A DNA stretch of 64,000 nucleotides from a virus. The notes under the pieces are model-generated. The model saw only the letters and a program-made list of their open reading frames with translations, was not told the DNA's origin and ran no database searches. The translations under genes were made by a program, and so were the position numbers. Positions within the stretch are counted from its first letter, which is position 1. Each line of letters begins with the position of its first letter. Below, piece after piece: positions 11,060 to 52,014 of the stretch. The stretch is taken from positions 1 through 64,000 of IMG/VR virus record IMGVR_UViG_3300017917_004176. The stretch is one strand, 5' to 3'.

Positions 11060-11087
11060 GGGGGACTTGTTCCCCCAACTTTTTTTT
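11060..11087 (+). terminator. Terminator GGGGGA/TCCCCC with T-run
   Basis: 6-bp GC stem followed by CAACTTTTTTTT. Its T-run runs into the first three bases of tRNA-Asn, so termination and tRNA transcription may compete. Confidence 0.6.
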
Positions 11088-11156
11088 GGAGTAGTTCAGT
11101 GGTAGAACATCTGGCTGTTAACCAGAGGGTCGTAGGTTCGAACCCTACCTCCAAAG
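11085..11156 (+). tRNA. tRNA-Asn (anticodon GTT)
   Basis: Acceptor TTTGGAG/CTCCAAA, D arm, anticodon arm TCTGG-CTGTTAA-CCAGA and T arm GTAGG-TTCGAAC-CCTAC; discriminator G. CCA is not encoded. Confidence 0.95.
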
Positions 11157-11157
11157 T

Positions 11158-11229
11158 CGCGGGATAGAGCAGTGGTGGCTCGTTGGGTTCATAACCCAAA
11201 GGTCGTGGGTTCAAATCCCACTCCCGCAA
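11158..11229 (+). tRNA. Initiator tRNA-fMet (anticodon CAT)
   Basis: Acceptor CGCGGGA against TCCCGCA leaves the C1-A72 mismatch that marks bacterial initiators. The anticodon arm TTGGG-TTCATAA-CCCAA has the three G-C pairs next to the loop that direct it to the P site. T arm GTGGG-TTCAAAT-CCCAC, discriminator A, no CCA. One base after tRNA-Asn. Confidence 0.93.
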
Positions 11230-11254
11230 TAAAATAAAAAAAGGAGGCGTGTCT

Positions 11255-11443
11255 ATGGGCAGCAAAATACAATGCAAGAAATGTCTTGATATCATTCAGT
11301 CTGAATATAGACACGACTTCAAGTGGTGCAGTTGTAAGTCCATCTATATAGATGGGGGCTCTGACTATACTCGTATTGGTGGTAATATCGAGAACATAGA
11401 GTTAGACCCAGAGAAGTTCAGATGGGGTACCCAAGTGGTTTAA
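11255..11443 (+). CDS. Small zinc-finger-like protein, 62 aa
   Basis: ATG at 11255 follows AAGGAGG by 7 bases. It has Cys pairs CKKC (residues about 7-10) and CSC (residues about 24-26), enough for one zinc site, and a conserved-looking IDGGSDYTRIGG segment. I recall small proteins of this kind in phages and Firmicutes as a domain of unknown function. The last 23 bases, stop included, lie inside the tRNA-Ser gene. Confidence 0.65.
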   Translation: MGSKIQCKKCLDIIQSEYRHDFKWCSCKSIYIDGGSDYTRIGGNIENIELDPEKFRWGTQVV

Positions 11444-11508
11444 GGGGCTTGTTTGCTAAACAAGTAGGTCGCTCGTGCGGCGCGTAGGTTCAAATCCTAT
11501 CCCCATCG
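11421..11508 (+). tRNA. tRNA-Ser (anticodon GCT)
   Basis: Acceptor GATGGGG/CCCCATC, anticodon arm CTTGT-TTGCTAA-ACAAG, a long variable arm and T arm ending AATCCTAT. Discriminator G. Its 5' end is also coding sequence of the 62-aa gene. Confidence 0.93.
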
Positions 11509-11511
11509 TAC

Positions 11512-11584
11512 GAACCATTGGCTCAGTTGGTAGAGCATCTGACTTTTAATCAGAGGGTCGGTGGTTCAAGTCCACCATGGTTCA
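11512..11584 (+). tRNA. tRNA-Lys (anticodon TTT)
   Basis: Acceptor GAACCAT/ATGGTTC, anticodon arm TCTGA-CTTTTAA-TCAGA, T arm GGTGG-TTCAAGT-CCACC, discriminator A. Confidence 0.95.
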
Positions 11585-11585
11585 T

Positions 11586-11695
11586 AGGCGCCCAGGGAAA
11601 TGGCAAAAACTCTCCCGACAACACAACAATAACCTACTAACATGGTGCAAGTCCAAAGCCTTCACGGGCAGTAGGTGGCGCTCGATATGTTTATA
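11586..11695 (+). ncRNA. Unknown structured RNA inside the tRNA array
   Basis: Outer stem GGCGCC (11587) with GGCGCT (about 11678), inner hairpin GGGA/TCCC, and a second domain CCTACT/AGTAGG holding GGTGCAAGTCC and GCC-TTCACG-GGC. No ORF with a ribosome site. The GGTGCAAGTCC ... CGGGCAGTA words recall a cobalamin riboswitch core, but the B12 box is missing, so I do not make that call. Confidence 0.4.
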
Positions 11696-11713
11696 TGCCT
11701 GGAGGTGCTTTAT

Positions 11714-11866
11714 ATGGCTTTGAATAAAGCAATAGCAAGTGGAAAAGAAAAGCGCCAACCATACAGGAAGGCAAAGACTATTGATAAGCAGTGCAGAAAT
11801 CATGGAACTTGTAGATGGTGTTCTGGAAATAGACAACACAATAGTAAAAAAAGAATGTTATACTAA
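11714..11866 (+). CDS. Small basic Cys-rich protein, 50 aa
   Basis: ATG at 11714 after TGGAGGTG. Begins MALNKAIASGKEKRQPYRKA and carries CRNHGTCRWC with a later His, a likely zinc knuckle. I recall similar short basic proteins in many phages and actinobacteria without a known job. The stop lies one base before tRNA-Thr. Could bind RNA, given its charge and location, but that is a guess. Confidence 0.6.
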   Translation: MALNKAIASGKEKRQPYRKAKTIDKQCRNHGTCRWCSGNRQHNSKKRMLY

Positions 11867-11867
11867 C

Positions 11868-11939
11868 GCCATCGTAGCACAACGGCAGTGCAACTGACTT
11901 GTAATCAGTAGGTTGGAGGTTCAAATCCTTTCGGTGGCA
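11868..11939 (+). tRNA. tRNA-Thr (anticodon TGT)
   Basis: Acceptor GCCATCG/CGGTGGC (one G-T pair), anticodon arm ACTGA-CTTGTAA-TCAGT, T arm GGAGG-TTCAAAT-CCTTT, discriminator A. Confidence 0.94.
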
Positions 11940-11945
11940 TCTTTT

Positions 11946-12016
11946 AAGGGCATAGTTCAATGGTAGAATAGAGGTCTCCAAAACCTCGGATGGAGGTTCG
12001 AATCCTTCTGCCCTTG
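11946..12016 (+). tRNA. tRNA-Trp (anticodon CCA)
   Basis: Acceptor AAGGGCA/TGCCCTT, anticodon arm GAGGT-CTCCAAA-ACCTC, T arm GGAGG-TTCGAAT-CCTTC, discriminator G. Confidence 0.94.
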
Positions 12017-12035
12017 TTGCAAAAAACAAAATAGG

Positions 12036-12064
12036 TTGACAAAACCTAAAAAATGATTTATAAT
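12036..12064 (+). promoter_or_regulatory. Promoter TTGACA-17-TATAAT
   Basis: Boxes at 12036-12041 and 12059-12064, then TATTATATAAG. A fresh start inside the tRNA array, about 70 bases before tRNA-Glu. The leader at 12080-12134 includes GTGGGTTCGATGCGTCCCAT, a T-arm-like hairpin. Confidence 0.8.
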
Positions 12065-12134
12065 TATTATATAAGTTATTTTTAATTGTCTGGTTTGCAG
12101 TGGGTTCGATGCGTCCCATCAAAACGCATACCAA

Positions 12135-12206
12135 GGCCTATTAGTCAAGTGGTGAAGACGCTGCCCTTTCACGGCAGAGTCACAGGTTCGAATCCTGTAT
12201 AGGTCA
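12135..12206 (+). tRNA. tRNA-Glu (anticodon TTC)
   Basis: Acceptor GGCCTAT/ATAGGTC, anticodon arm CTGCC-CTTTCAC-GGCAG, T arm ACAGG-TTCGAAT-CCTGT, discriminator A. Confidence 0.94.
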
Positions 12207-12207
12207 T

Positions 12208-12281
12208 CGAGGGTTGGCTTAATTGGTTAAAGCACTCGTCTGATAAGCGAGAGATTGTGGGTTCAAGTCCCATACCCTCAA
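12208..12281 (+). tRNA. tRNA-Ile (anticodon GAT)
   Basis: Anticodon arm CTCGT-CTGATAA-GCGAG, D arm GCTT/AAGC, T arm GTGGG-TTCAAGT-CCCAT. The acceptor CGAGGGT/ACCCTCA leaves position 1 (C) opposite position 72 (A), an initiator-like mismatch in an elongator tRNA. Discriminator A. Confidence 0.9.
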
Positions 12282-12338
12282 TAAGAAAGAAGGTGTCATG
12301 TATAGACAGAGAACAGCAACATATAGAAATCTCATATC

Positions 12339-18511: not shown

Positions 18512-19429
18512 ATGACAAAAATTATACATGGTTATGCTTGTGTTTCTGAGTTGAATCCAACTATAAAAACAGGCTCTACATCAACACTAACTTATATCAA
18601 TAGACAAGACGCATCTACTCGCGGCTCTTATTTGCAAACAAAAGCACAAGCAAATATTACTAACTTGCGCAAACTATTGCTCAAAAACTTCGACAATAAC
18701 TTGCTCGCTTATCGCTTACCTGACGACTTTATGCCAATGGCAGACTTGGGTTATTATGACTGGAAATCTTTATACTCTTCTCAGCTTGCAGACATAGGCT
18801 CTCTAATCAATGCTTATGATATGCGCATCTCGTTTCATCCTTCGCAATTCTTTGTGCTTAATTCTGCACAAGACCACACAGTTCAATCTACTATACACAA
18901 CCTCAACATATTCGCAGATATTCTTGCCTCATTCAAAGTTGACCATACACCTACTCTTTTACTTCATGTTGGTGCACTCAACTCTTATCGTAATTGGCAA
19001 GAAGCATCTGACGCTTTTTGTGCTAATTATCAAAAGTTAAATGACAATGCCAAAAAATTTCTTGCAGTAGAAAATGACCAAACTTCTCATAGTACTCAGT
19101 CTTGTCTTCGTATCCACGAACAAATTGGCATCCCAGTAGTTTTTGATAATGAGCATTACAAGTTTAATCCAACACCAAATCTTTCTTTTGATGATGCTCT
19201 TGCTGCGTCTCTCGCAACTTGGAAAGACCGAACTCCCAAAGTTCATCTTTCATCTCATAAAGAAGGTTCAACTCGTCATGCCCATGCAGACTGGTTGCTA
19301 CCACAAGATTATCTACAAGTTTATAATATAGTATCACAATCTGCACACAAAGAAGTAATCATTATGTCCGAAGTAAAAAAGAAGGACGCTGCAGTTGTAA
19401 AATTACTTGATGATTTGAAAAAATTATGA
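18512..19429 (+). CDS. uvsE: UV damage endonuclease UvsE/UvdE
   Basis: A 305-aa TIM-barrel repair enzyme that nicks DNA 5' of UV photoproducts. Landmarks in order: SFHPSQF, LLLHVGALNS, AVENDQ, VVFDNEHYKF, KVHLSSHKEG with HAHAD, and the metal-binding IIMSEVKKKDAA. These supply the His, Glu and Asp ligands of the metal cluster in this family. Length fits bacterial UvsE. RBS is weak (GGGGTG). It would protect phage DNA after light damage. Few phages carry UvsE; T4 uses an unrelated enzyme. Confidence 0.9.
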   Translation: MTKIIHGYACVSELNPTIKTGSTSTLTYINRQDASTRGSYLQTKAQANITNLRKLLLKNFDNNLLAYRLPDDFMPMADLGYYDWKSLYSSQLADIGSLINAYDMRISFHPSQFFVLNSAQDHTVQSTIHNLNIFADILASFKVDHTPTLLLHVGALNSYRNWQEASDAFCANYQKLNDNAKKFLAVENDQTSHSTQSCLRIHEQIGIPVVFDNEHYKFNPTPNLSFDDALAASLATWKDRTPKVHLSSHKEGSTRHAHADWLLPQDYLQVYNIVSQSAHKEVIIMSEVKKKDAAVVKLLDDLKKL

Positions 19430-20627: not shown

Positions 20628-21812
20628 ATGTTCAAATCAAAAGAAGAATACATTCAAACTATTGGCGAGATGTTAAGCCAAATAAATACAAGAGAAATAG
20701 AAAAACTTATTTTGTCCTCAGCAGATGCTGATAGCATAGATATAAAATTTCATCTGAATGCTTGGGCTGGTAATAAGGCTCATTTATATCGTATGTTTGG
20801 TAATAAGTTTAGAATAGAACAAGAAGTAGATAATAATGTACCAGAGTCAGAGTTTAGAAATGATTTTGATATTTTTGAAAGAAATTATTTGGCAGCTGAG
20901 CCACGAGCAATTTTACTTCATTATTTCTTAAAATCATTTGTTAATAAAGACGAGATGATTAAAAATGAAATTTCTAGGGATATTGTGTTATATGGACTTA
21001 AGCTTCAAACAGGTACAAAAATATCTCGTATTATGTCTAAATTATTACCAGCAGATTTAATAGATAAAACTCAAACTGCATACTCTATGTTTCTACAAAA
21101 GTTTAATGGTAAAGGCAAAGCAATAATTTCTATTCACCCAATAGACTATCTTACTATGTCTGAAAATACATCAGGTTGGCGTTCATGCCATGCGCTTGAT
21201 GGTGAATATCGCGCAGGTACATTGGCATATATGATGGACACAACTTCTACAATTGCGTATGTTACTAATAGTAAGTTTGATAAGAGTTATGTTGAGTGGC
21301 AAGATGGCACTAGAAAAGTTGCTAAAATGTCTATCGACAATAAGAGTTGGAGACAAGTCGTTTTATTTAAGGCTCCTAGATTTGAAGAGTATTTAGAGCA
21401 TTCTGTTCCATTTGCTGTTCAATCAAGACAATATCCAGCTATTATAAATAGTTATTCAAATGCTGTTTCAAAATTAATTGAAGATGTTATGTCCTCTAAT
21501 CTTGGAGATACATATTCTGTTCGCAAAAAACTTTCTGTTTCATTTTTACAAGAATTGGTTGAGAATGAAGACGGCGCAGTTTGGTATAATGATATTTATC
21601 ATGGTTCATTTGATTATGGTCGAGCAGTATATCAAACATCAAAATATAATAGTACAGAAGACCTTGCTCGAGATAATAAATTTTCTACTGCCATAGTTGG
21701 TTATGAAGGCATACCTTGTGTTTGTGGCTGTCGCTCAGCTATTGATGAAGGAGATACACTTTTAGGTTATGGTCATCGTGATGAGGATTATTGGGATGAA
21801 GACGAGGATTAA
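20628..21812 (+). CDS. GWRSCH-motif protein A, 394 aa
   Basis: The centre carries SIHPIDYLTMSENTSGWRSC followed by HALDGEYRAGTLAYMMD (residues about 167-204). The protein at 22950 has nearly the same block, so the two are paralogs. Conserved His, Cys and acidic residues make an enzyme plausible. The C-terminus has CVCGC, a possible zinc knuckle, and an acidic tail. RBS GGGAGGGG. I do not know a described function. The conserved block resembles no catalytic motif I can name. Confidence 0.65.
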   Translation: MFKSKEEYIQTIGEMLSQINTREIEKLILSSADADSIDIKFHLNAWAGNKAHLYRMFGNKFRIEQEVDNNVPESEFRNDFDIFERNYLAAEPRAILLHYFLKSFVNKDEMIKNEISRDIVLYGLKLQTGTKISRIMSKLLPADLIDKTQTAYSMFLQKFNGKGKAIISIHPIDYLTMSENTSGWRSCHALDGEYRAGTLAYMMDTTSTIAYVTNSKFDKSYVEWQDGTRKVAKMSIDNKSWRQVVLFKAPRFEEYLEHSVPFAVQSRQYPAIINSYSNAVSKLIEDVMSSNLGDTYSVRKKLSVSFLQELVENEDGAVWYNDIYHGSFDYGRAVYQTSKYNSTEDLARDNKFSTAIVGYEGIPCVCGCRSAIDEGDTLLGYGHRDEDYWDEDED

Positions 21813-22949: not shown

Positions 22950-24239
22950 ATGAAAGACATAGATAAACTTGAAGTTGATATTATACGAACCATAGGTAAA
23001 AATACTTACACTTCTATGCCCTATTTCGATATTGAAATCTATAAAAAGAAAAAGGGGGAGTTCTATCAAGACTTTGGTGGTAATTATTGGATAGAGAAAA
23101 AAGATGTTCATGTAGAAAGAGATGCTCAATATTTAGAGGAAAGATATAATGTTTTTATTAAGAAACTAAGGATGCGCTCTACAACAACAGACTTAGCAAA
23201 CTTTATTGAGGCGAACGGTATTACAGGTTTTTATAATAATTTTGTTTCTATCACAGAGGCGTCTTTTAGAGATGAGAAAGTAGTCTTTCGTCGTGGCACC
23301 AAGCTATCCAAAGTCTTTAAGTCTTTAATAGGAGATTCTCAATATCTGTTTGAAGAGTCTCTTGAAGATATAAGAAATGAATATTCTGCTATTATAGGAC
23401 AAAAATCTATAACAGGTAATTTAAGAATATCAATCCACCCATACGATTATTTAACTATGTCTGAAAATAATAATGGGTGGAGGTCTTGCCATTCTTTGGA
23501 TGGTGAATATGGCTCTGGCGTGCTTTCATATATGGCAGATAAATGTACTCTTGTAGCATATTTATATACAGAAGACAATACTTCTCTTAGACGAATGCCT
23601 GATGATATTTTGTGGAACTCAAAAAAATGGCGCGCTCTAATTTATATGAATAAACAACGAAATCTAGGAGTAATCTCAAAACACTACCCATATCAATTTG
23701 ATGCTCTTGAAAAGGAAGTTTTAGACTTGCTTAAAACAGTATATCCAGGAGAATGGGAAATGAAAATAGAGCCTAGAAAGAAAATAGAAGAGTATCTTTT
23801 TGATTCTGGTTCTTTACATTTTAATGATATTCTAAAATCAAAACAACATAAAGAAGCTACTACTCTTATAAATCGTAGTAAGTTAGGTCTTGCAGATGTA
23901 ATGTTTGTTGGTGGGCCAGTTATGTGTATTGACTGTGGTAGAAATGAAGTTCATATTCAAGGCAATTATCATTGTATAGATTGTTGTGACTATACTTTCT
24001 GTGATCGCTGCGGGGACACAATATATGAAGACGAGGCATCAATACAAGAAAATGGAGGCATTTACTGTGAAAGCTGTCATTACTATGTAATGAGAGAAGA
24101 AGAGATTGAAGAGTCTGTTGTCTGTGAAGTTTGTGGTTCTGACATACCAGATGAAGAAATTGAACTTATAAGATTTACAACACAAGGGGAAGGTGGGTGG
24201 CGCTTGACTTGTCATTCTTGTCAAACAGGTCAAGTATAA
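22950..24239 (+). CDS. GWRSCH-motif protein B with zinc fingers, 429 aa
   Basis: Paralog of 20628-21812: residues about 157-190 read SIHPYDYLTMSENNNGWRSC, HSLDGEYGSGVLSYMAD. After about residue 325 it carries at least three Cys4-type units (CIDCG...CIDCC, CDRCG...CESC, CEVCG...CHSC). RBS GAGGTG is 6 bases before the ATG. It sits nine bases after the metallohydrolase stop, so the set is likely co-translated. Function unknown; the zinc fingers suggest nucleic acid or protein binding. Confidence 0.65.
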   Translation: MKDIDKLEVDIIRTIGKNTYTSMPYFDIEIYKKKKGEFYQDFGGNYWIEKKDVHVERDAQYLEERYNVFIKKLRMRSTTTDLANFIEANGITGFYNNFVSITEASFRDEKVVFRRGTKLSKVFKSLIGDSQYLFEESLEDIRNEYSAIIGQKSITGNLRISIHPYDYLTMSENNNGWRSCHSLDGEYGSGVLSYMADKCTLVAYLYTEDNTSLRRMPDDILWNSKKWRALIYMNKQRNLGVISKHYPYQFDALEKEVLDLLKTVYPGEWEMKIEPRKKIEEYLFDSGSLHFNDILKSKQHKEATTLINRSKLGLADVMFVGGPVMCIDCGRNEVHIQGNYHCIDCCDYTFCDRCGDTIYEDEASIQENGGIYCESCHYYVMREEEIEESVVCEVCGSDIPDEEIELIRFTTQGEGGWRLTCHSCQTGQV

Positions 24240-24240
24240 T

Positions 24241-25089
24241 ATGATAAAAGCAGATGTTTATTTTTTTGAAAATATGAAAAAATTACTAGATACAAAAAAT
24301 GTAAATGTTGATGAAAATCCTCGTGCTAGATATGGAGATGGCACACCTGCCTTCTCCCATTTTATCACACAGGTATATGAAGAATATGATATTTCTAAAA
24401 ATGAATTTCCTCTAATTACATTAAGAAAAATTCCTGTTCAGTCTTCTATAAAAGAAATCTTCTGGATATATCAAGACCAAACTTCTGACTTAGAAGTACT
24501 GGAAAAAAAATATGGAGTTACTTGGTGGAGAGAGTGGGAGTCAAAGAGTGTACCTGGCACAATAGGAAATAGATATGGTCATAGCGTAAAAAAGTTTGAC
24601 CAAATAAATAAACTTATTTCTGAATTAAAAACAAATGCTTATAGTCGTAGACATATTATATCTCTTTGGGATATGGATAGTTTTTCTGAAACAGATGGTT
24701 TACTACCTTGCGCTTATGAAACTATATGGTCTGTTCGCAATGTTAAAGGCACTAAATATTTAGATGCAACTTTAATACAAAGAAGTTCTGATTATTTGGT
24801 TGCTAATCATGTAAATAAAATTCAATATGTTGCTCTACAAATGATGCTTGCTCATGTTTGTGACATGAAGCCAGGAAAGTTTGTACACTTTGTTCAAAAC
24901 TTACATATATATAATAAGCATAGATTAGGTGGATCTGAATTAATGAGACGCACTCCCGCTTCTCAACAACCTATTCTAAAACTAAAGCCCGATACACCAA
25001 AAGATTTTTATCAAATAGGTATTGACAATTTTGAATTATTGTGTTATAATATAGAATATCCCCGAATAAAATTCGATTTAGCCATATAG
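24241..25089 (+). CDS. thyA: Thymidylate synthase (ThyA family)
   Basis: A 282-aa protein with the ThyA order: TLRKIPVQSSIKEIFWIYQ, GTIGNRYGHS, RRHIISLWD, catalytic Cys157 in LLPCAYET, QRSSDYLVANHVN, QYVALQMMLAH and HIYNKH. The PCxYET form is the one I recall from B. subtilis ThyA rather than PCH of E. coli. The Asn of the dUMP-selecting position is kept. It methylates dUMP with methylene-THF, which SHMT (29967) regenerates. A dUMP hydroxymethylase is an alternative, since those share the fold. Confidence 0.85.
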   Translation: MIKADVYFFENMKKLLDTKNVNVDENPRARYGDGTPAFSHFITQVYEEYDISKNEFPLITLRKIPVQSSIKEIFWIYQDQTSDLEVLEKKYGVTWWREWESKSVPGTIGNRYGHSVKKFDQINKLISELKTNAYSRRHIISLWDMDSFSETDGLLPCAYETIWSVRNVKGTKYLDATLIQRSSDYLVANHVNKIQYVALQMMLAHVCDMKPGKFVHFVQNLHIYNKHRLGGSELMRRTPASQQPILKLKPDTPKDFYQIGIDNFELLCYNIEYPRIKFDLAI

Positions 25090-26128: not shown

Positions 26129-26158
26129 TTGACAGCATTCTAGATTTTGTGGTATAAT
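26129..26158 (+). promoter_or_regulatory. Promoter TTGACA-18-TATAAT
   Basis: Boxes at 26129-26134 and 26153-26158. Start of the nucleotide-metabolism operon led by nrdJ. Confidence 0.75.
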
Positions 26159-26197
26159 ATAAATATAAATACTAGATGTAGTAGGAGATGGAAAAAA

Positions 26198-28534
26198 GTG
26201 TATAATGTTTTATCAAATGAATTTTTAGAGAAGTATGAAGATTTTAGTCCAAATATGAATGAGCTTGGAAAGTTTGTTTATTTGAGAACATATTCAAGAT
26301 ACTTAACTAGCGAAAATCGAAGAGAGAATTGGAAAGAAACTGTAAAGCGCTCTGTTGAGTTTAATATAAAACAAGAGTTAGACCACTTAACAAGACAAGG
26401 TATGCCTATAACAAAATATAAAAAACAGCGTATTGAACAAGAGGCACAAATGTTTTTTAATTCAATGTATGGGCTTAACCAATTTTTAAGTGGGCGAACT
26501 ATGTGGGTTGGAGATAGTAGTAATTCTGGTATTCAAAAATTTGCAATGGCAAACTTCAATTGTGCCTATACTAAAGTAGAAAAATGGGAAGATTTGGGAG
26601 ATTTATTTTATGCTCTTTTAGTTGGTACTGGTGTTGGCTTTGGATGTCGATTAGAAAATGCAGAGAAACTTGCGCCTATCAGACGCTTTGGTTACTTAGT
26701 TAAATTCAAAGATTATAATTATATTGGCTTCCCTGGAATGATTAGCGAATCTTCTTTAAGCCTAAGTCAAGATACTGCAACCATTGTAATCGGTGACAGT
26801 AAAGAAGGTTGGGTTGGCTCATTAAATATTTTCCTTTCACTATTGACAGATAAAAAATATGACTATATTAAATATATAACACTTGATTTTGATCATGTTC
26901 GCCCTAATGGAACTCCATTAAAAACATTTGGTGGAACTGCATCTGGTCCAGAACCTTTAAAAGAAATGTTCGAAGGAATTCTTAAAGTTATTAGAAATGA
27001 ATACGATCCTGACAATCTAGCCGATCCAATGATAGATGGAAAAAATCCTGCGTATGTAAAAGTTCGTCCTGTTCATATTATGGATATTGCTAATCTAATT
27101 GGTTATAATGTTGTTGTTGGTGGCGTTCGTAGAACAGCTGAAATTTTCTTGCTTGATGAAAATGATATGGAGTCTGTATTTGCAAAGTTTGGATTAAATG
27201 GGCTTTGGACACAAGAACACTATGATAAGTTTACTAAGATTTGGGATATGATTAAAGCAAGTGGTATGAGATATCCAGAGCAAAGATTTTATAAAATGAA
27301 AGATGATTTTTTATCCAAGGGTTTTTATGAAGGAACTGGCTTTCATCATCGCAGAATGTCAAATAACTCAGTAGCATTTATTGAAAAGCCTGCAAAAGAA
27401 TATGTTATGCTTTTAGGTGAAATGATGCAACTAGAAGGCGAACCTGGAATGATTAATTTATATGAAGCTGCTCGTAGAATTTTTGCTGCTATGGGAATAA
27501 GTAATCCAGGACATGAATCAATTTGTGAAGTGGCCAAAGAAATAGGTTTAAATCCTTGTGCCGAAATTATCCTGTTTTCAAAAGGATTATGTAATCTAAC
27601 CACTGTCAATGTTAAGAATTTCGTAAAACAAGAAAATGGAAAACATGTATTAGATATTCAAGGTCTTTTGAATGCTCAAGTTTTATCTGCTCGGGCAGGC
27701 CTTCGCATGACTCTGATTCAACTAGAACTTCCTGAGTGGCATCGAGTTCAATCTACATATCGTTTAACAGGATGTTCATTAACTGGTTATCAAGATGCGC
27801 TTGAAATGGTTGGCTTAACAAAAGAAGATGAAAAAGCTTTACTGGCGGCTCTACGTAAAGTAGGGCAAGATGCTGTTAATCAATATGCAGATGAGCTTCG
27901 CATTCCCGCTCCTTTGTTTGTCACAGCTATTAAACCAGAGGGAACTCTTTCTCAGGTTGCTGGTGGAGTAAGTCCTGGACTTCACTTTTCTCATGCACCT
28001 TATTATATTCGACGCATTCGAATCAATGCTCGTGACCCATTAGCTCTAGCAGTTAAAGAATCTGGCTGGACTATTAATCCTGAGGTTGGAACTCCTGGCG
28101 ATACCTATGAAGAACAAATGAAAAATGCTCGCACACTAGTTATTGATTTTCCTATTGCAAGTGGTGCGTCAAGAACTAAAGATGATGTTTCTGCTTTAGA
28201 ACAATTTGAAATATATAAAACATTTCAAAAATATTATACAGATATGAATACTTCAAATACAATCACAGTTAAGCCTGATGAATGGACTGGATTATTCGAA
28301 CAAATCTATGAAGACTGGGATCAATATGTTGGAGTTTCTTTCTTGGCTTTAGATGGTGGAACATATCAATTAGCGCCATATGAGACCATTACAGAAGAAA
28401 AATATAAAGAATTATCTGCAGTTCATAATCCTCTGAGATTAGATTTACTTCAAGAGTATGATTTAAAACTATATTCTGAATTATTAGATGACACGATGGA
28501 AGGCTGCGAAGCTGGAGTTTGCCCAGTAAGATAA
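26198..28534 (+). CDS. nrdJ: Class II (B12-dependent) ribonucleotide reductase
   Basis: GTG start at 26198, 778 aa. It reduces ribonucleoside triphosphates to dNTP precursors using adenosylcobalamin instead of oxygen or an iron partner. Cys122 in NFNCAYT, Cys454 in NPCAE (radical) and Cys465 in LCNLTTVN have the spacing of the Lactobacillus monomeric enzyme (408/419). The C-terminus CEAGVCPV is the CxxxxC shuttle pair reduced by thioredoxin, which this operon also encodes (33196). LVGTGVGFGCR and KPEGTLSQVAGGVSPG are further landmarks. Host must supply B12. Confidence 0.93.
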   Translation: MYNVLSNEFLEKYEDFSPNMNELGKFVYLRTYSRYLTSENRRENWKETVKRSVEFNIKQELDHLTRQGMPITKYKKQRIEQEAQMFFNSMYGLNQFLSGRTMWVGDSSNSGIQKFAMANFNCAYTKVEKWEDLGDLFYALLVGTGVGFGCRLENAEKLAPIRRFGYLVKFKDYNYIGFPGMISESSLSLSQDTATIVIGDSKEGWVGSLNIFLSLLTDKKYDYIKYITLDFDHVRPNGTPLKTFGGTASGPEPLKEMFEGILKVIRNEYDPDNLADPMIDGKNPAYVKVRPVHIMDIANLIGYNVVVGGVRRTAEIFLLDENDMESVFAKFGLNGLWTQEHYDKFTKIWDMIKASGMRYPEQRFYKMKDDFLSKGFYEGTGFHHRRMSNNSVAFIEKPAKEYVMLLGEMMQLEGEPGMINLYEAARRIFAAMGISNPGHESICEVAKEIGLNPCAEIILFSKGLCNLTTVNVKNFVKQENGKHVLDIQGLLNAQVLSARAGLRMTLIQLELPEWHRVQSTYRLTGCSLTGYQDALEMVGLTKEDEKALLAALRKVGQDAVNQYADELRIPAPLFVTAIKPEGTLSQVAGGVSPGLHFSHAPYYIRRIRINARDPLALAVKESGWTINPEVGTPGDTYEEQMKNARTLVIDFPIASGASRTKDDVSALEQFEIYKTFQKYYTDMNTSNTITVKPDEWTGLFEQIYEDWDQYVGVSFLALDGGTYQLAPYETITEEKYKELSAVHNPLRLDLLQEYDLKLYSELLDDTMEGCEAGVCPVR

Positions 28535-28546
28535 GGAGGAAGTTTT

Positions 28547-29962
28547 ATGAAATATGATGTTTTAATCGTTGGAGCAGGACCTACTGGTATTTTTGCTGCA
28601 TATGAACTTATAAATAAAAGCCCCAATCTAAAAGTATTGGTTTTGGATAAAGGACATGAAATTACAAGACGCAATTGTCCTATATTAGAAGGTAGAATAG
28701 AAAAATGTCCACCACCAGCTGGTAAGAAAGATTATGCTGGATGCTTGCCTGCTTGTTCGATAACAAGCGGGTTTGGTGGAGCTGGAGCCTATTCTGATGG
28801 TAAGTTTAATATAACTTCTGAGTTCGGGGGATGGATGTCCGAATACCTACCCCCCTCTCAAGTTTTAGATTTAATTAAGTATGTAGATAAAATTAATCTA
28901 GAAATGGGCGCACCCCTAGAAAAGACTAACCCTAATTCTCCATATATAAATGAGATAGAAAAAAAGGCTATTTCGGCTGGTCTTAAATTATTGAAGGCAG
29001 AAGTAAGACATCTTGGAACTGAGCTCAATTTAGAAATCTTAAAAAGAATATATGATTCTTTGAAAAATAGAGTTGAGTTTAGATTTAAGACTGAAGTTAT
29101 TGATATTGAATTTCAAGATAATCAAGTTCAATCAGTCGTCACTAATAAAGGAGAAGTTTTACACGCAGAAACCTTTATTATATGTCCTGGTCGAGATGGT
29201 TCTATTTGGTTAAAAAACTTATTATCAAAACAAAAAGTTAAGTTTACAAACAATCAAGTAGATATTGGAGTTCGAGTTGAAACTTCTGACGTTATTATGT
29301 CTGACATTAATAAACACTTATACGAGGCCAAGTTTATATACAATACTTCCTTCGGAACAAAAGTAAGAACTTTTTGCTCAAATCCATCTGGTCATGTTGT
29401 AGTAGAAAATCATTCTGGAACAATGCTTGCAAATGGTCATTCTTATAAAGACCCTGTTTTGGCAAGTACAAATACAAACTTTGCTCTTCTTGTCTCTCAT
29501 GTTTTTACAGAGCCATTTAATCTAACTAATGAATATGCTCATGAAATTGCAAGACTTGCAAACCACCTTTCAAATGGTGGATTGATTATTCAAAAGTTTG
29601 GAGATATAATGAAAAATCGTAGAAGCACAGACAAGAGAATAAAAGAAGGGTTTGTTGAGCCAACATTAAAAGAAGCAGTACCAGGTGATTTAGGATTAGC
29701 TCTTCCATATGTGACCATGAAAAGTCTGATAGAAATGATCGAAGCTCTTGATGTAGTTACTCCAGGAATAGCTTCTGAACATACATTATTATATGGAGTA
29801 GAAGCAAAATTTTATTCTTCTCGTCCACAGGTAGACAAGACTTTTAAAACTTCCATTGATAATTTATATGTTGGTGGAGATGGCGCAGGTCTAACTCGAG
29901 GATTAGCACAAGCTAGTGCATCGGGAGTTTGGATTGCTAGAAATATATCTGAAAATAGGTGA
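28547..29962 (+). CDS. FAD-dependent oxidoreductase (COG2509-like)
   Basis: A 471-aa flavoprotein. N-terminal Rossmann site [14 protein letters not shown] with the acidic partner in LVLDKG, then [14 protein letters not shown], a second nucleotide-binding strand [10 protein letters not shown], and the C-terminal FAD motif [13 protein letters not shown]. This order matches the uncharacterised FAD-dependent dehydrogenase group COG2509. RBS AAGGAGGAAG. It lies between nrdJ and glyA, so a redox step in one-carbon or nucleotide metabolism is likely; the substrate cannot be read from sequence. Confidence 0.75.
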
Positions 29963-29966
29963 ACAC

Positions 29967-31166
29967 ATGAGAGATACTAAAATACTAGATTTAATAAACA
30001 AAGAAGCAAAAAGACAAAAAAATAATATAGAGCTCATAGCTTCTGAGAACTTTGTTTCTCAAGATATTTTATTGGCTCAAGGTTCCATACTCACAAATAA
30101 GTATGCAGAAGGATATCCTGGAAGCAGATACTATGGTGGGTGTGAATGGGTTGATGAAGTAGAGCGAGTTGCAATAGAAAGAGCAAAACAATTATTCGGC
30201 GCTGAACATGTTAATGTTCAACCACATTCTGGATCACAGGCAAATACTGCAGTTTATTCTGCGCTTTTAACTCATGGTGATGTTGTTTTGGCAATGGACC
30301 TTGCACATGGTGGACATTTAACTCATGGAAGCCCAGTTAATTTTAGTGGTAAAACATACAATTTTTATCACTATGGAGTTGATAAAGAAACTCATTTAAT
30401 TGACTATGACCAGGTAAGAGAACAAGCTAAAAGACTTCAGCCAAAAATGATAGTTGCGGGTGCAAGCGCATATTCAAGAATAATTGATTTTGCAAAGTTT
30501 AGAGAAATAGCAGATGAAGTAGATGCTTATTTAATGGTTGATATGGCTCATATCTCAGGTTTAGTTGCAACAGGTGCGCATCCAAGTCCAGTACCATATG
30601 CAGACTTTGTTACGTCAACAACACATAAAACCCTAAGAGGTCCTCGCGGTGGAATAATACTAAGTAAGAAAGAATATGGTCCTGCTATAGACAAAGCGAT
30701 TTTCCCTGGTATACAAGGAGGTCCTTTGGTTCATGTTATAGCAGCTAAAGCCATATGTTTCAATGAGGCATTAGATCCATCATTTAAGTTGTATATTGAC
30801 AAAGTTGTTAGGAACTCAAAAAGATTTGCTCAAAATCTTCAAAACAATGGATTTGAAATTATTTCAGGTGGAACTGATAATCATCTTTTTTTAGTTAACG
30901 TTGCTAAAAAAGGACTTACAGGAAAACGAGTAGAAGAAAGTCTAGATGAAATAGGTATAACTCTAAATAAAAATTCCATTCCTTTTGACGAACTATCTTT
31001 TAAAGTGACTAGTGGTGTTAGAATTGGAACAGCCGCCGTAACCACCAGAGGTTTTGATGCTATTGAGATAGATGAGGTCTCAGAGATAATAACTGACTTC
31101 CTCGGCAATAAAATAACAAAACAAGAAGCTAGTGATCGAGTCAAAGACTTGACCTACGTATTCTAA
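29967..31166 (+). CDS. glyA: Serine hydroxymethyltransferase
   Basis: A 399-aa PLP enzyme converting serine and THF to glycine and methylene-THF. Landmarks: [41 protein letters not shown], and [12 protein letters not shown] with PLP-lysine K221. ATG at 29967, just after the FAD gene ends (4 bases), with AGGTGA as ribosome site. It supplies the cofactor for ThyA. Slightly shorter than host GlyA (about 415). Uncommon in phage genomes. Confidence 0.92.
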
Positions 31167-31183: not shown

Positions 31184-31675
31184 ATGGCAAATGTAAGTCC
31201 TAAGCTTGTAGAGATGTTGAATCAACAAATTGCACATGAAGGCTTAAACTCTCAAAAATATGCTTATATTGGAGCATGGTTGCAAAACAAAGGATTAAAT
31301 AAAATTGGTGCACACTTTTTTCCAGGACAAACTGATGAAGAAAGAAGTCATCAAGATTTAATTCGTGATTATTTAATTAAAAGAAATGAAAATGTTCAAT
31401 CTTATGTTATTCCAGAATTTAAAATGGAACTGTCTGGCGTAACTCAAATTGCTCAATTTTATTTAGCAACAGAGCAAGAAACAACTGCAAAATTAAAAGC
31501 TATCGCACTAGCTGCTTTTGCAGAAGGAGATCTTTTAACTTTTGATTTTGCTATGGACATGGTTCATAAACAATTAAATGAAGAAGATGAGGCTATTACT
31601 TTCTTGGATAAAGCTATTATGGCTGATGATGCTCCAGAAGTATTATTGCTTTGGGATGCAAATTTTTCACTATAA
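31184..31675 (+). CDS. Ferritin (non-haem, FtnA-like)
   Basis: A 163-aa four-helix protein. Ferroxidase ligands are present with FtnA spacing: Glu19, Glu53 and His56 (DEERSH), Glu97/99 (ATEQETT), Gln130 and Glu133 (HKQLNEE). Ferritins oxidise ferrous iron and store it in a 24-mer shell. RBS AAAAGGAG. It sits between SHMT and two phage-type genes, within the metabolic run that also contains haem proteins. Could limit oxidative damage or hold iron for QcrB/QcrC; inferred. Confidence 0.88.
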   Translation: MANVSPKLVEMLNQQIAHEGLNSQKYAYIGAWLQNKGLNKIGAHFFPGQTDEERSHQDLIRDYLIKRNENVQSYVIPEFKMELSGVTQIAQFYLATEQETTAKLKAIALAAFAEGDLLTFDFAMDMVHKQLNEEDEAITFLDKAIMADDAPEVLLLWDANFSL

Positions 31676-33195: not shown

Positions 33196-33456
33196 ATGAA
33201 AATTATTAAATTTTCTGCAGAATGGTGTGGCCCTTGTAAAATGTTAGATAAACAATTACCCCAAGTAATTGAGCATTTTGAATCCAAGGGAATCGCTTTA
33301 GAAATTGAAAAAATAGATATTGACTTAGACAAAGAAAAAGCTGAGCAATATGATATTATGGGAGTTCCAACTTTAATCTTGGAACCATCTCAAAAAAGAT
33401 TAGTTGGTTATATGCCAGCTGCAAAATTAATCGAGGAACTTGAAGCACAAAATTAA
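33196..33456 (+). CDS. Thioredoxin
   Basis: An 86-aa minimal thioredoxin with WCGPC (Cys11, Cys14) after a beta strand, and the cis-proline GVPTLIL. Shorter than the usual 105 aa, like many phage versions. RBS GAGGAG. The class II reductase upstream is re-reduced by thioredoxin at its C-terminal Cys pair, so this is its likely partner. Confidence 0.88.
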   Translation: MKIIKFSAEWCGPCKMLDKQLPQVIEHFESKGIALEIEKIDIDLDKEKAEQYDIMGVPTLILEPSQKRLVGYMPAAKLIEELEAQN

Positions 33457-33524: not shown

Positions 33525-33710
33525 ATGTCCAATAAAAAATTATTCTTTCAATGTTTCTCAATTAACTTTCATCGTTTTCTAAAAGCAAATGGTCTAAGAG
33601 CGATGAGCAAAAATGTCCACGCAAATGGAAAAACCTTTTGGGTTTATGAGCGCACAGAACAATTTGAAAAATGCCTTAAAATTTGGCACGATACTAAGCC
33701 CGTGAAATAG
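33525..33710 (+). CDS. Small hypothetical protein, 61 aa
   Basis: ATG after AAAAGGAGAG. The pattern FFQCFSINFHRFLKANG then GKTFWVYERTEQFEKCL recalls a small Firmicutes/phage domain (DUF5659-like) of unknown role. Own promoter just upstream and a new promoter directly after the stop. Confidence 0.6.
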   Translation: MSNKKLFFQCFSINFHRFLKANGLRAMSKNVHANGKTFWVYERTEQFEKCLKIWHDTKPVK

Positions 33711-33711
33711 G

Positions 33712-33740
33712 TTGACAAATCCTTATATTTTTGATATAAT
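33712..33740 (+). promoter_or_regulatory. Promoter TTGACA-17-TATAAT
   Basis: Boxes at 33712-33717 and 33735-33740. Drives the BMP lipoprotein and probably qcrB-qcrC, as no terminator is evident between them. Confidence 0.8.
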
Positions 33741-33778
33741 ATAATTGTAATACAAAATAAATATAAGGAGAATTGTCT

Positions 33779-34852
33779 ATGCAAAAACGTTTTATTCTTA
33801 TCTTTTCAATCTTTGCAGCACTTTCTTTAGTTCTTTCTGCCTGTGGTGGAACGACTGAAGAAACTAAGTTTAAAGTTGGTATGGTTACTGACGCTGGTAC
33901 GATTGATGACAAATCTTTCAACCAAGGAACTTGGGAAGGTGTTTTAAAAGCTGGTAGTGATTTTAATTTAGATACTGTATATCTAAAACCAACTGGAACC
34001 ACTCAAGCAGATTATCTAAGAGAAATCACAAATTTATATGATACTGGTTACAAGCTTATTGTAACACCAGGCTTTAAATTTGAAACTACTATTTTTGAAG
34101 CTCAAACAAAATATCCTGATGCAAAATTCATTTTAATTGATGGATATCCTCATGCAGGAGATTGGGCTCCAGTAGTTGGAGAGAATACAGTTTCTATCTT
34201 CTTCGCAGAACATCAATCGGGCTTCCTAGCTGGTTTGGCTACTGCACTAGAAATTGGAACTGGTAAGGTTGGTTTTATTGGCGGTATGGAAATTCCTCCA
34301 GTTCAAAAATTCAACTGGGGCTTCCAACAAGGTGTTGCTTATGCAAATGCTAATTTTGGAACTACAGTAACTATTGCTCCAGAAGATGTTGTTTATCAAG
34401 GTTCATTCGATAATGTGCAAGCTGGTAAAACTATCGCTGCTGCTATGTATGAACGCGGAGTTAAAGTTATCTTTGCTGCTGCAGGTGGAGTTGGCGTAGG
34501 TGCTATCTCTGAAGCTAAAGATCGTGCATTAGCTGGCGAAGAAGTATGGATTGTTGGAGTAGATGTTGACCAATATGCTGAAGGAGTTTATACAGATGGT
34601 AAGTCAATCATCTTAACTTCTGCTATGAAATATATTGATCAAGCTGCGTATGATATGATTAAAGCTGAATTAGATGGAACATTCCCAGGTGGAGAAATCT
34701 TAACTTTCGATGTTACAAATAATGGAGTAGGTATTCCAAAAGAAAATCCTAATCTTTCAGCTGAAACTGTTGGCAAAGTAAATGAAGTTCTTGAATTATT
34801 AAAAGAGGGAACTGTTACTGTATCTGCTGAGCAAGGCAATTTAATTAAGTAA
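33779..34852 (+). CDS. BMP-family (PnrA/Med-like) nucleoside-binding lipoprotein
   Basis: A 357-aa exported lipoprotein: basic MQKR, hydrophobic core, lipobox LSAC with Cys22. The mature part begins FKVGMVTDAGTIDDKSFNQG, the hallmark of BMP substrate-binding proteins, and keeps WGFQQGVAYAN, FAAAGGVGVGAI and IVGVDVDQ. These proteins bind purine nucleosides (or act as kinase regulators) on the outer face of the membrane for an ABC importer; no importer gene is in this window. ATG at 33779 follows AAGGAGAA. Looks host-derived. May feed nucleosides to the phage or occupy a surface receptor. Confidence 0.88.
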   Translation: MQKRFILIFSIFAALSLVLSACGGTTEETKFKVGMVTDAGTIDDKSFNQGTWEGVLKAGSDFNLDTVYLKPTGTTQADYLREITNLYDTGYKLIVTPGFKFETTIFEAQTKYPDAKFILIDGYPHAGDWAPVVGENTVSIFFAEHQSGFLAGLATALEIGTGKVGFIGGMEIPPVQKFNWGFQQGVAYANANFGTTVTIAPEDVVYQGSFDNVQAGKTIAAAMYERGVKVIFAAAGGVGVGAISEAKDRALAGEEVWIVGVDVDQYAEGVYTDGKSIILTSAMKYIDQAAYDMIKAELDGTFPGGEILTFDVTNNGVGIPKENPNLSAETVGKVNEVLELLKEGTVTVSAEQGNLIK

Positions 34853-34943: not shown

Positions 34944-35618
34944 ATGTTAAATCGCATTTATGACTGGATTGATGAGCGCCTAGATATTACACCTATTTGG
35001 CGAGATATCGCCGATCATGAAGTCCCAGAGCATGTAAATCCCGCACATCATTTTTCTGCATTCGTATACTGCTTTGGAGGACTTACATTTTTTGTTACTG
35101 TCATACAAATATTATCTGGAATGTTCTTAACAATGTACTATGTTCCAGATATTGAAAATGCTTGGCAATCGGTTTACTATTTACAAAATGAAGTTGCATT
35201 TGGACAGATTGTTCGTGGTATGCATCATTGGGGTGCAAGTGTTGTTATTGTTATGATGTTCTTACACACACTTAGAGTTTTCTTTCAAGGTGCCTATAAA
35301 AAACCACGCGAAATGAATTGGGTAGTAGGAGTTCTAATCTTCTTTGTTATGTTGGCCCTTGGTTTCACTGGATATTTACTACCATGGGACATGAAAGCAT
35401 TATTTGCTACAAAAGTTGGCCTGCAAATTGCAGAAGCAACACCATTTATAGGACCACTATTGAAAACATTATTAGCTGGATCAGCAGATGTTGTTGGGGC
35501 TCAAACATTAGCACGATTCTTTGCGATCCATGTATTCTTTCTACCTGCAGCACTTTTTGCCTTATTAGCAGCTCATTTTATTTTTATTCGCAAACAAGGC
35601 ATATCAGGGCCTTTGTAA
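34944..35618 (+). CDS. qcrB: Menaquinol:cytochrome c reductase, cytochrome b subunit
   Basis: A 224-aa membrane protein that reads almost residue for residue like my memory of B. subtilis QcrB, with the same length. Four hydrophobic helices. Haem b ligands are His94/His108 and His196/His211, with the 14 and 15 residue spacing of cytochrome b6. Cys43 (VYCFGG) is the site of the extra covalent haem in the b6 type. The complex passes electrons from menaquinol to cytochrome c and moves protons. The Rieske gene qcrA, normally directly upstream, is absent here. RBS AAAGGAGTGATG. Confidence 0.95.
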   Translation: MLNRIYDWIDERLDITPIWRDIADHEVPEHVNPAHHFSAFVYCFGGLTFFVTVIQILSGMFLTMYYVPDIENAWQSVYYLQNEVAFGQIVRGMHHWGASVVIVMMFLHTLRVFFQGAYKKPREMNWVVGVLIFFVMLALGFTGYLLPWDMKALFATKVGLQIAEATPFIGPLLKTLLAGSADVVGAQTLARFFAIHVFFLPAALFALLAAHFIFIRKQGISGPL

Positions 35619-35642
35619 GTTGAATAAGGGAGATGAACATAT

Positions 35643-36404
35643 ATGCAACGCGGAAAAGGAATGAAATTTGTTGGAGATTCTCGCATATCAGCAGATCGAA
35701 AGCCAAATATACCAAAAGATTATTCAGAATATCCTGGTAAGACAGAGGCTTTTTGGCCGAATTTTCTTCTTCGAGAATGGATGGTTGGGTCAGTATTTTT
35801 AATTGGATTTTTATTTTTAACTGCCGCACATTCAGCCCCACTAGAAAGAATTGCAGATCCAACTGATACAAACTACATACCATTACCAGACTGGTACTTT
35901 TTATTTCTATATCAGCTATTGAAATACACATATGCCTCTGGTCCATATACTGTTATTGGTGGACTAGTGCTTCCTGGAATTGCCTTTGGAGCATTACTTT
36001 TAGCGCCATTTTTAGATCGTAGTGAGCATAGACGCCCATGGAAACGACCTTTGGCTACTTCATTTATGCTATTAGGAACAGCTGCAACTATCTACTTAAC
36101 GTGGGAGTCTGTAGTAACAACAGATTGGAATAAACGAGAAGAACAGGGAAAAATTGTGGAAGAAAAAGAAATTGATACAAAAGCAGAAGGATATATATTA
36201 TTGTCGAATAATGGTTGTATATCTTGTCATGGAAATGATTTGGCGGGTGGCGCTGTTGGCCCAACATTAATTAATACTGGACTAACTTCTGAAGAAATAA
36301 AATCAATTGCGATTAATGGAGTAGGCAATATGCCTGCTGGAATATTTAAGGGCACACAAGAAGAACTGCAAATATTGGCTGATTATTTAGCCGAATTAAA
36401 ATGA
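35643..36404 (+). CDS. qcrC: Menaquinol:cytochrome c reductase, cytochrome b/c subunit
   Basis: A 253-aa fusion as in Bacillus QcrC. The N-terminal part is subunit-IV-like with three helices and the quinol-site PLPDWYFLFLYQLLKYTYA region (PDWY in place of PEWY). The C-terminal part, outside the membrane, is a small cytochrome c with CISCH (Cys192, Cys195, His196) and a likely Met ligand in GNMPAG. No stop, frameshift or truncation. RBS GGGAGATG. It follows qcrB by 24 bases, the usual host order. Confidence 0.95.
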   Translation: MQRGKGMKFVGDSRISADRKPNIPKDYSEYPGKTEAFWPNFLLREWMVGSVFLIGFLFLTAAHSAPLERIADPTDTNYIPLPDWYFLFLYQLLKYTYASGPYTVIGGLVLPGIAFGALLLAPFLDRSEHRRPWKRPLATSFMLLGTAATIYLTWESVVTTDWNKREEQGKIVEEKEIDTKAEGYILLSNNGCISCHGNDLAGGAVGPTLINTGLTSEEIKSIAINGVGNMPAGIFKGTQEELQILADYLAELK

Positions 36405-36431: not shown

Positions 36432-36599
36432 ATGAAGGGTAGAATGGTTAAAATATTAAAAGAACATGGAATTAGAAGAGATCCTGAGACTCTTGAAAAA
36501 CTTGAAAGAATAAAGACTCATCGAATTATAAACCTTTATTACAAAGAAATTGTAGACAAAGGGCTCTTAGATTCAGTTGACAAAAATAAAAATTCATGA
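36432..36599 (+). CDS. Small basic protein, 55 aa
   Basis: ATG at 36432 after AAGGGTAGAGCG. Product MKGRMVKILKEHGIRRDPET and onward is basic and helical; I recall similar short proteins in Bacillus phages. It marks the return to ordinary phage genes after qcrC. Its 3' end overlaps the next promoter. Function unknown. Confidence 0.55.
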   Translation: MKGRMVKILKEHGIRRDPETLEKLERIKTHRIINLYYKEIVDKGLLDSVDKNKNS

Positions 36600-36605
36600 T
36601 ATAAT
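36577..36605 (+). promoter_or_regulatory. Promoter TTGACA-17-TATAAT
   Basis: -35 within the end of the 55-aa gene, -10 at 36600-36605. Heads the recombination/replication block. Confidence 0.8.
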
Positions 36606-36640: not shown

Positions 36641-37477
36641 ATGAAAAAAATGATTAACAAGACAGTAGTTGAAGGCGTTTTGCTTGAAAAAGAATTACGC
36701 TCTGGTGTGGCAGAAAAATCTGGAGTGAAGTATATTGCAGGCAAATTACATCTTGAAACTGAAGATGGCAATACTATTTCAGTAGAGCTTTATGAAGGAG
36801 AAAAAACTTCAAAAGGTCTAGAAAATCCTAAGTTTGCTACTTTAAAAAGCATTTATGATAATGCTAAAACAAAGCATAGTGGTGCAGAAAAACCAACTCT
36901 TTTAAAGATTAATTCTGCATTTGGAACAAATGATTGGTATAATAAAGAAGGAGAGCTTGTTTGCTCTTTAGTAAATAAAGGTGGATATATTAATGTTGTA
37001 TCTGCTACATCTCCTAAATCTGAATTTGAAGTAGATGTTGTTATTCAATCAGTAGTTCCTGAGATTCGCAATGAAGTAGAAACTGGTCGCGCTTACGTTA
37101 ATGGTTTAATTTTTAACTATGCTAACCAAGCCCTTCCTGCTAAGTTTGTTGTTGATAATCCTAAAGGTGTAGCTTTCTTTGCTGCTCTGCCAAAAAATAC
37201 TTTTACTCGCGTTTGGGGAAAACAAGTTAACTCTAGTGTAACTTCTGAGCGCATGGAAGAGTCTGCTTTTGGCGATGCTAAAGTTGCAAAAACTTCTTAT
37301 ACTCGTAAAGAGTTTGTTATTACTGGTGCACAAGTTGAACCATATGATGACATGCAATTAACTGCAGATGAACTTAATACTGCTATTCAAAATCGTAATT
37401 TAGCTATGGCAGAATTAAAAAATCGAACAGTATCAAAAGAAACTTCAAAACCAGCTTTTGGTGGATTCTCATTCTAA
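36641..37477 (+). CDS. Probable single-stranded DNA-binding-type protein, 278 aa
   Basis: Beta-rich protein (KYIAGKLHLETEDGNTISVE, then FTRVWGKQVNSSV) with a glycine/aromatic C-terminal end KPAFGGFSF. It sits directly before a Sak4-like ATPase, where phages often carry an SSB or annealing partner. The fold could be an OB pair. Call based on context and composition rather than a definite motif. RBS TGGAGGAA. A weak hairpin GGGCGAA/TTCGCCC follows at 37483. Confidence 0.5.
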   Translation: MKKMINKTVVEGVLLEKELRSGVAEKSGVKYIAGKLHLETEDGNTISVELYEGEKTSKGLENPKFATLKSIYDNAKTKHSGAEKPTLLKINSAFGTNDWYNKEGELVCSLVNKGGYINVVSATSPKSEFEVDVVIQSVVPEIRNEVETGRAYVNGLIFNYANQALPAKFVVDNPKGVAFFAALPKNTFTRVWGKQVNSSVTSERMEESAFGDAKVAKTSYTRKEFVITGAQVEPYDDMQLTADELNTAIQNRNLAMAELKNRTVSKETSKPAFGGFSF

Positions 37478-51555: not shown

Positions 51556-52014
51556 ATGAATAAATTAAGAGGATTTGAAGTTGTTACAAAAGAACATAGA
51601 AAGCATCCAAACTTAGAAATTCAATTACCTATTCGGGGTAGCGCAAATGCCGCGGGATATGATTTATTTAGTCCTATTGATGTAACCTTGGGACCAGAGC
51701 AAAGTATTTTAGTTTGGACTGATGTTAAGGCTTACATGCTAGCAAATGAAGTTTTGGAAATATATCCAAGATCTGGATTAGCTACAAAGTTCGGCATGGT
51801 CTTAAAAAATGGGGTTGGAATTGTAGATAGCGATTATTATTCAAATCAGAGTAATGATGGCAACATAGGATTATTTTTTATAAATAATGGAAAGAGTACT
51901 GCTTATATTAAAGCAGGGGATCGAGTTGCACAAGCTATTTTTAAAAACTTTTTACTTGCAGATGGAGATGAATCTTCAGCTGAGCGAGTTGGGGGATTTG
52001 GTTCTACAGGATGA
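51556..52014 (+). CDS. dut: dUTPase
   Basis: A 152-aa trimeric-type dUTPase that turns dUTP into dUMP for ThyA. Motifs in order: AAGYDLFSP (1), YPRSGLATKFG (2), NGVGIVDSDY (3, catalytic Asp and Tyr), GDRVAQAIF (4), and C-terminal GGFGSTG (5). Overlaps the next gene by four bases. Confidence 0.92.
   Translation: MNKLRGFEVVTKEHRKHPNLEIQLPIRGSANAAGYDLFSPIDVTLGPEQSILVWTDVKAYMLANEVLEIYPRSGLATKFGMVLKNGVGIVDSDYYSNQSNDGNIGLFFINNGKSTAYIKAGDRVAQAIFKNFLLADGDESSAERVGGFGSTG

Follow-up and report, generated by a model that had tools for sequence, protein, structure and literature searches.

Results

The window analysed here comprises bases 1-64,000 of the IMG/VR virus record IMGVR_UViG_3300017917_004176 (92,171 bases). 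Within a phage genome, it carries genes for two subunits of the menaquinol:cytochrome c reductase, qcrB and qcrC, both on the plus strand. The gene qcrB (34944-35618) encodes a cytochrome b6-type subunit of 224 amino acids (aa). The protein matched the NCBIfam model NF002990 'cytochrome b6' with 413.9 bits (cut-off 325) and also the Pfam family Cytochrome_B. A subunit-IV-like membrane part fused to a mono-haem cytochrome c, together 253 aa, is encoded by qcrC (35643-36404). This protein scored above the cut-offs of Pfam Cytochrom_B_C (PF00032) and Cytochrome_CBB3 (PF13442). Both genes start with ATG and contain no internal stops. They are preceded by ribosome sites, as was stated in a preliminary description of this DNA. 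The ribosome site of qcrB, AAAGGAGTGATGATCC, is similar to those of cells, as many blastn alignments with cellular loci start up to about 17 bases ahead of the ATG.

The haem and quinol sites were found at the places given in the preliminary description. In QcrB the haem b ligands His94/108 and His196/211 form two bis-histidine sites at b6 spacing, and the covalent-haem Cys43 is kept. QcrC contains the quinol site PDWY at residues 82-85, the haem c site CISCH at 192-196 and the ligand Met230 within a conserved MP motif. Furthermore, the phage proteins were compared with 151 Bacillales sequences. Among 150 invariant columns of QcrB the phage protein differs at two, both by conservative changes (K4R, L100V); none of the 76 invariant columns of QcrC is changed. 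For both proteins jointly, 2/226 host-invariant columns are altered. Pairwise dN against eight cellular relatives was 0.06-0.09 for QcrB and 0.20-0.26 for QcrC, with dS near 3.4 or saturated. These values show strong constraint on QcrB and QcrC; with one phage copy known, any part of it may have acted in cells rather than inside phages.

The Rieske subunit QcrA had been noted as absent from the window. No match to the Rieske domain (PF00355) was detected in the whole 92,171-base record either, which may be incomplete. Hence, the record encodes the subunits B and C without a Rieske protein alongside, and not a complete QcrABC.

Directly upstream of qcrB lies bmp (33779-34852, + strand), encoding a BMP/PnrA-like (nucleoside-type) substrate-binding lipoprotein (PF02608, 2.4e-67). 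Its ATG is situated 6 bases inside the listed TTG open reading frame (ORF) 33773-34852. The protein contains the lipobox LSAC-G, and its best solved relative is TmpC (PDB 2fqw, 4e-64). In the cellular loci examined, bmp orthologues head operons of the order ATPase-permease-permease. An ATPase and two permeases were not found beside the phage bmp, which is followed directly by qcrB. The preliminary description had placed qcrB and qcrC as a pair between ordinary phage genes, with NrdJ and thioredoxin on the left. Phage genes do flank the locus and the pair is genuinely phage-borne, but the left neighbour is bmp, which had been overlooked, and the pair makes up two thirds of a three-gene unit.

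The three genes are enclosed by two perfect promoters of the form TTGACA-17-TATAAT. One, with TG before the second hexamer, is located ahead of bmp (33712-33740, + strand). The other (36577-36605, + strand) starts the next unit, consisting of phrog_2367, Sak4 and DnaB. In the window, 22 perfect TTGACA-N16-18-TATAAT promoters were counted (spanning 1349-50044), against 0.13 expected by shuffling; this promoter class is strikingly strict and of sigma-A type. The left border is formed by a DUF5659-like phage ORF of 61 aa (33525-33710, + strand), likewise overlooked in the preliminary description, whose match to Pfam PF18903 is weak and below the curated cut-off. In the relatives L084 and L085 it is found with 87-90% identity (tblastn). 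At the right border the phage gene phrog_2367 (36641-37477, + strand) is followed directly by Sak4, as in the phage relatives. A possible, unassigned ORF of 55 aa (MKGRMVKILKEHGIRRD...) is situated 3' of qcrC (36432-36599, + strand, by translation).

L084 and L085 are close relatives by Sak4 (78 and 74%, respectively). In both, the same border genes enclose other cargo, namely a small HTH-like ORF, a Dps-like protein and glycosyltransferases; the Dps-like assignments are weak. At this site L084 (1731-7019) carries five glycosyltransferase-like genes and one Dps-like gene. Different cargo between shared borders identifies the site as a variable cargo locus. That bmp-qcrB-qcrC is a three-gene auxiliary cassette in a variable phage cargo site is well supported. 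Phage genes stand on both sides in the order kept by the relatives, the genes are intact, and a phage-class promoter lies in front, from which transcription is predicted.

The record encodes a portal protein (phrog_2739, 2.1e-89), a terminase-like protein, tape measure, tail fibre, and further tail and virion structural proteins. The replication genes are of the SPbeta/EF1 type. A PolIII-type DNA polymerase, DnaB, Sak4, primase, NrdJ, a Dda-like helicase and a RecJ-like exonuclease are encoded as well. For polymerase and Sak4 the nearest phages are Enterococcus EF1-type phages with 47-50% identity, followed by SPbeta-type Bacillus phages (about 46% for the polymerase and about 31% for Sak4). 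The phage probably infects Bacillales or Bacillus-like bacteria. Its nucleotide genes are ThyA (24241-25089), NrdJ (26147-28534), a full-length serine hydroxymethyltransferase (SHMT; 29916-31166, 619 bits to NF000586) within the nucleotide gene block, thioredoxin (33196-33456) and dUTPase (51556-52014).

Regarding the origin of the pair, QcrB shares up to 92% of its residues with Bacillus QcrB. For QcrC, aa identity to any Bacillales QcrC found is 75% at most, and at the DNA level the closest cellular match found has about 75% identity. These two values rule out a recent capture from the sampled sequenced hosts. GC content alone was uninformative as a test of origin, since AT-richness is shared by the nearest cellular relatives (GC3 0.26 against 0.23). 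A tree of QcrBC, as had been proposed in the preliminary description, was calculated with 133 rows. It places the phage within the Bacillaceae, where an open group (support 82) contains it along with Sutcliffiella and the genomes G593, G617 and G642. The end branch of the phage is long (0.34), and its exact sister is not settled by the tree.

The phage bmp is at most 72% identical to its nearest relatives. In the bmp tree the phage stands outside the Bacillaceae bmp group; joining it with that group was not rejected (p 0.099 in the approximately unbiased (AU) test). Joining it to the subgroup nearest by qcr gave an AU p of 0.036, with a set picked after the tree was seen. Several of the nearest bmp holders have no close QcrC. 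In the cellular loci examined, qcrBC follows qcrA and is located at another genome site than bmp. On this evidence, bmp, qcrB and qcrC may stem from one donor or from two.

Codon-usage scores per codon were +0.044 for qcrC, +0.020 for bmp and 0.001 for qcrB. As references, the phage core scored 0.048 (standard deviation, sd, 0.024) and cellular genes of the nearest lineage -0.054 (sd 0.016, largest -0.021). Nine cellular qcrB/qcrC pairs tested were all negative. Codon usage is phage-like for qcrC and bmp and intermediate for qcrB.

Protein, alignment and DNA pattern searches yielded no further qcrBC pair in IMG/VR or INPHARED, where near-identical records are possibly hidden and many records are fragments. 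The alignment scans used two short patterns each, and distant forms could escape them. None of 50 related virus records contained a cytochrome b domain. A match in a Helicobacter phage record of INPHARED was rejected: this distant cytochrome b (39% identical) lies at the extreme end of the record and is probably host flank. In the open-access journal papers searched, no phage genome was reported to carry genes for bc1 or cytochrome c reductase, or qcrB. Thus, as the preliminary description had supposed, no counterpart appeared in the phage records and papers searchable, and we provisionally regard this as the first description of a bc-complex pair in a phage.

Discussion

The phage-borne respiratory pair is genuine and uncommon. 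It suggests that host respiration is maintained or altered during infection. That the Rieske partner is missing from the pair suggests joint assembly with QcrA of the host, and the near-invariant QcrB makes binding of host QcrA plausible. We consider it fairly probable that QcrB and QcrC of the phage join host QcrA in a complex III that stays active in the infected cell; expression, assembly, benefit to the phage and host are inferred. The strong sigma-A-type phage promoter would drive bmp-qcrB-qcrC. QcrB and QcrC would be produced in infection, with haem supplied via host machinery, and, together with the host Rieske protein, would build a functional menaquinol:cytochrome c reductase. It could sustain the proton-motive force and electron flow as expression of host genes breaks down. 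The phage enzymes NrdJ, ThyA, SHMT, thioredoxin and dUTPase would thereby be fed with ATP and with nucleosides that are imported or salvaged, and the BMP lipoprotein could capture nucleosides for a host permease.

Several points weigh against this co-assembly. The pair is known from one phage only among the records searched. The phage has neither permease nor ATPase for its BMP protein, and bmp and the qcr genes may have two donors. The intermediate codon usage of qcrB may reflect a shorter stay in phages or a constraint on expression. Furthermore, the constraint on both proteins may already have existed before the genes were captured from a host not sampled here.

Beyond co-assembly, B and C may be encoded deliberately without the Rieske subunit to recharge or stabilise host QcrA. 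This would be a psbA-like subunit replacement that sustains the proton-motive force and prevents superoxide formation from unpaired QcrA. We propose it tentatively, as a nearly balanced question leaning slightly to the negative.

The closest known system is QcrABC of Bacillus subtilis, with the same two subunits, lengths, ligands and B-C gene order; identity to Bacillales reaches up to 92% for QcrB and about 75% for QcrC. The B. subtilis reductase has a b6-type QcrB and a QcrC made of subunit IV fused to cytochrome c (PMC3475470, citing Yu et al. 1995). In contrast to B. subtilis, the phage locus is without qcrA and the host operon neighbours, and has bmp upstream, a phage promoter and a position in a cargo site.

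Cyanophages are known for the electron-transport genes psbA, psbD, petE, petF and ptoX as well as photosystem I genes and ndhI/D/P (PMC10452541, PMC5082946). These are likewise host-derived subunits, often of part-complexes, and are thought to maintain electron flow (PMC10452541, PMC5082946). However, they serve the photosynthetic chain of cyanobacteria, whereas the genes described here belong to the bc complex in the respiratory chain of a Bacillales-type host. A hydrothermal-vent virus encodes the cytochrome bd oxidase CydAB (PMC12043954). This is also a respiratory quinol enzyme on a virus contig, but a different, complete two-subunit oxidase and no bc complex. Virome reads assigned to CYTB/petB (K00412; 7 reads in 2 viromes; PMC3877843) hint at a viral cytochrome b of complex III; here both genes are present on a 92 kb phage contig. 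For bmp, Lactobacillus phage Ldl1 (KM514685, 74.8 kb) encodes a distant BMP-like protein, 30% identical over 98%, and qcr genes were not reported for this phage by the search. The BMP-family protein of Ldl1 (KM514685.1, 57457-58527) is annotated as an ATP binding cassette transporter.

Genes for photosynthetic electron flow are well established in phages, whereas a respiratory bc pair in a phage genome was not found in the searchable records and papers. The respiratory bc complex is provisionally new among phage electron-transport auxiliary genes, here alongside a nucleoside-binding-type lipoprotein. If functional, the pair would show that subunit replacement, known from photosystems, also occurs for complex III in aerobic Gram-positive bacteria. 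Since qcr mutants of B. subtilis exist, phage QcrB and QcrC are directly testable with host QcrA.

Maturation of QcrA requires Tat export as well as an iron-sulphur cluster, and the omission of this subunit from the cassette may simply reflect these needs. A different account of the omission is control of superoxide. Its premise is that QcrA without its partners is harmful, as it detaches on membrane depolarisation and generates superoxide. Extra QcrB and QcrC would hold QcrA in the complex and shield the cell and the phage DNA until lysis, which would account for A being the subunit left out. In B. subtilis treated with valinomycin, deletion of qcrB or qcrC lowers survival and deletion of qcrA raises it (PMC11317493). 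GFP-QcrA clusters, QcrB and QcrC do not, and QcrA is a superoxide source (PMC11317493). Presence of B and C without A matches this deletion pattern. Besides thioredoxin and UvdE, this phage encodes a ferritin/Dps-like protein (31184-31675), and Dps-like genes occur in the cargo site of both relatives. On the other hand, depolarisation of the host by the phage and unpaired QcrA both have to be presumed. The explanation also overlaps with co-assembly for respiration, as both require binding of QcrBC to QcrA. We regard superoxide control as unlikely.

The pair could further be passenger DNA that the cargo site picked up and that brings no present benefit. Only one phage among the records searched has it, the cargo of the relatives differs, and the constraint could derive from a cellular past. 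However, the codon usage of qcrC and bmp is phage-like, the frames are intact with all ligands despite long divergence, and a perfect phage-class promoter lies directly ahead. This makes passenger DNA improbable.

A use without the Rieske protein, in which QcrB and QcrC act as a shunt or as a dominant-negative subcomplex, slowing complex III of the host and diverting menaquinol to other oxidases, would fit a record without QcrA. However, every catalytic and structural position tested is conserved, and a blocker would have no need of intact haem and quinol sites; we judge this use very unlikely.

An assembly chimera, about which the preliminary description had been concerned, or cellular contamination is the least likely explanation: the contig comes from a metagenome, and contamination of viromes with cellular DNA is a known problem (PMC3877843), but a chimera would take two or more precise misjoins within 3 kb, phage border genes flank the cassette in the order of the relatives, bmp and qcr are at separate loci in the cells examined, and qcrA or other qcr neighbours are absent. 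With the phage-like promoters and codon usage (qcrC, bmp), the variable cargo at the same site and a best cellular DNA match of about 75%, this concern is largely answered.

Some further features of the window were observed. Between NrdJ and SHMT lies a FAD/NAD(P)-dependent oxidoreductase-like gene (28547-29962) with weak matches to many flavoprotein models. The ferritin/Dps-like gene matched PF00210 (2.5e-14). The UV damage endonuclease UvdE/UvsE (18512-19429) scored 136.2 bits at a curated cut-off of 124.45. Two genes (20628-21812 and 22950-24239) both belong to phrog_18912, a family without known function, and may represent a duplication. Eight tRNA genes (Asn, Met, Ser, Lys, Thr, Trp, Glu, Ile) are clustered at 11084-12282.
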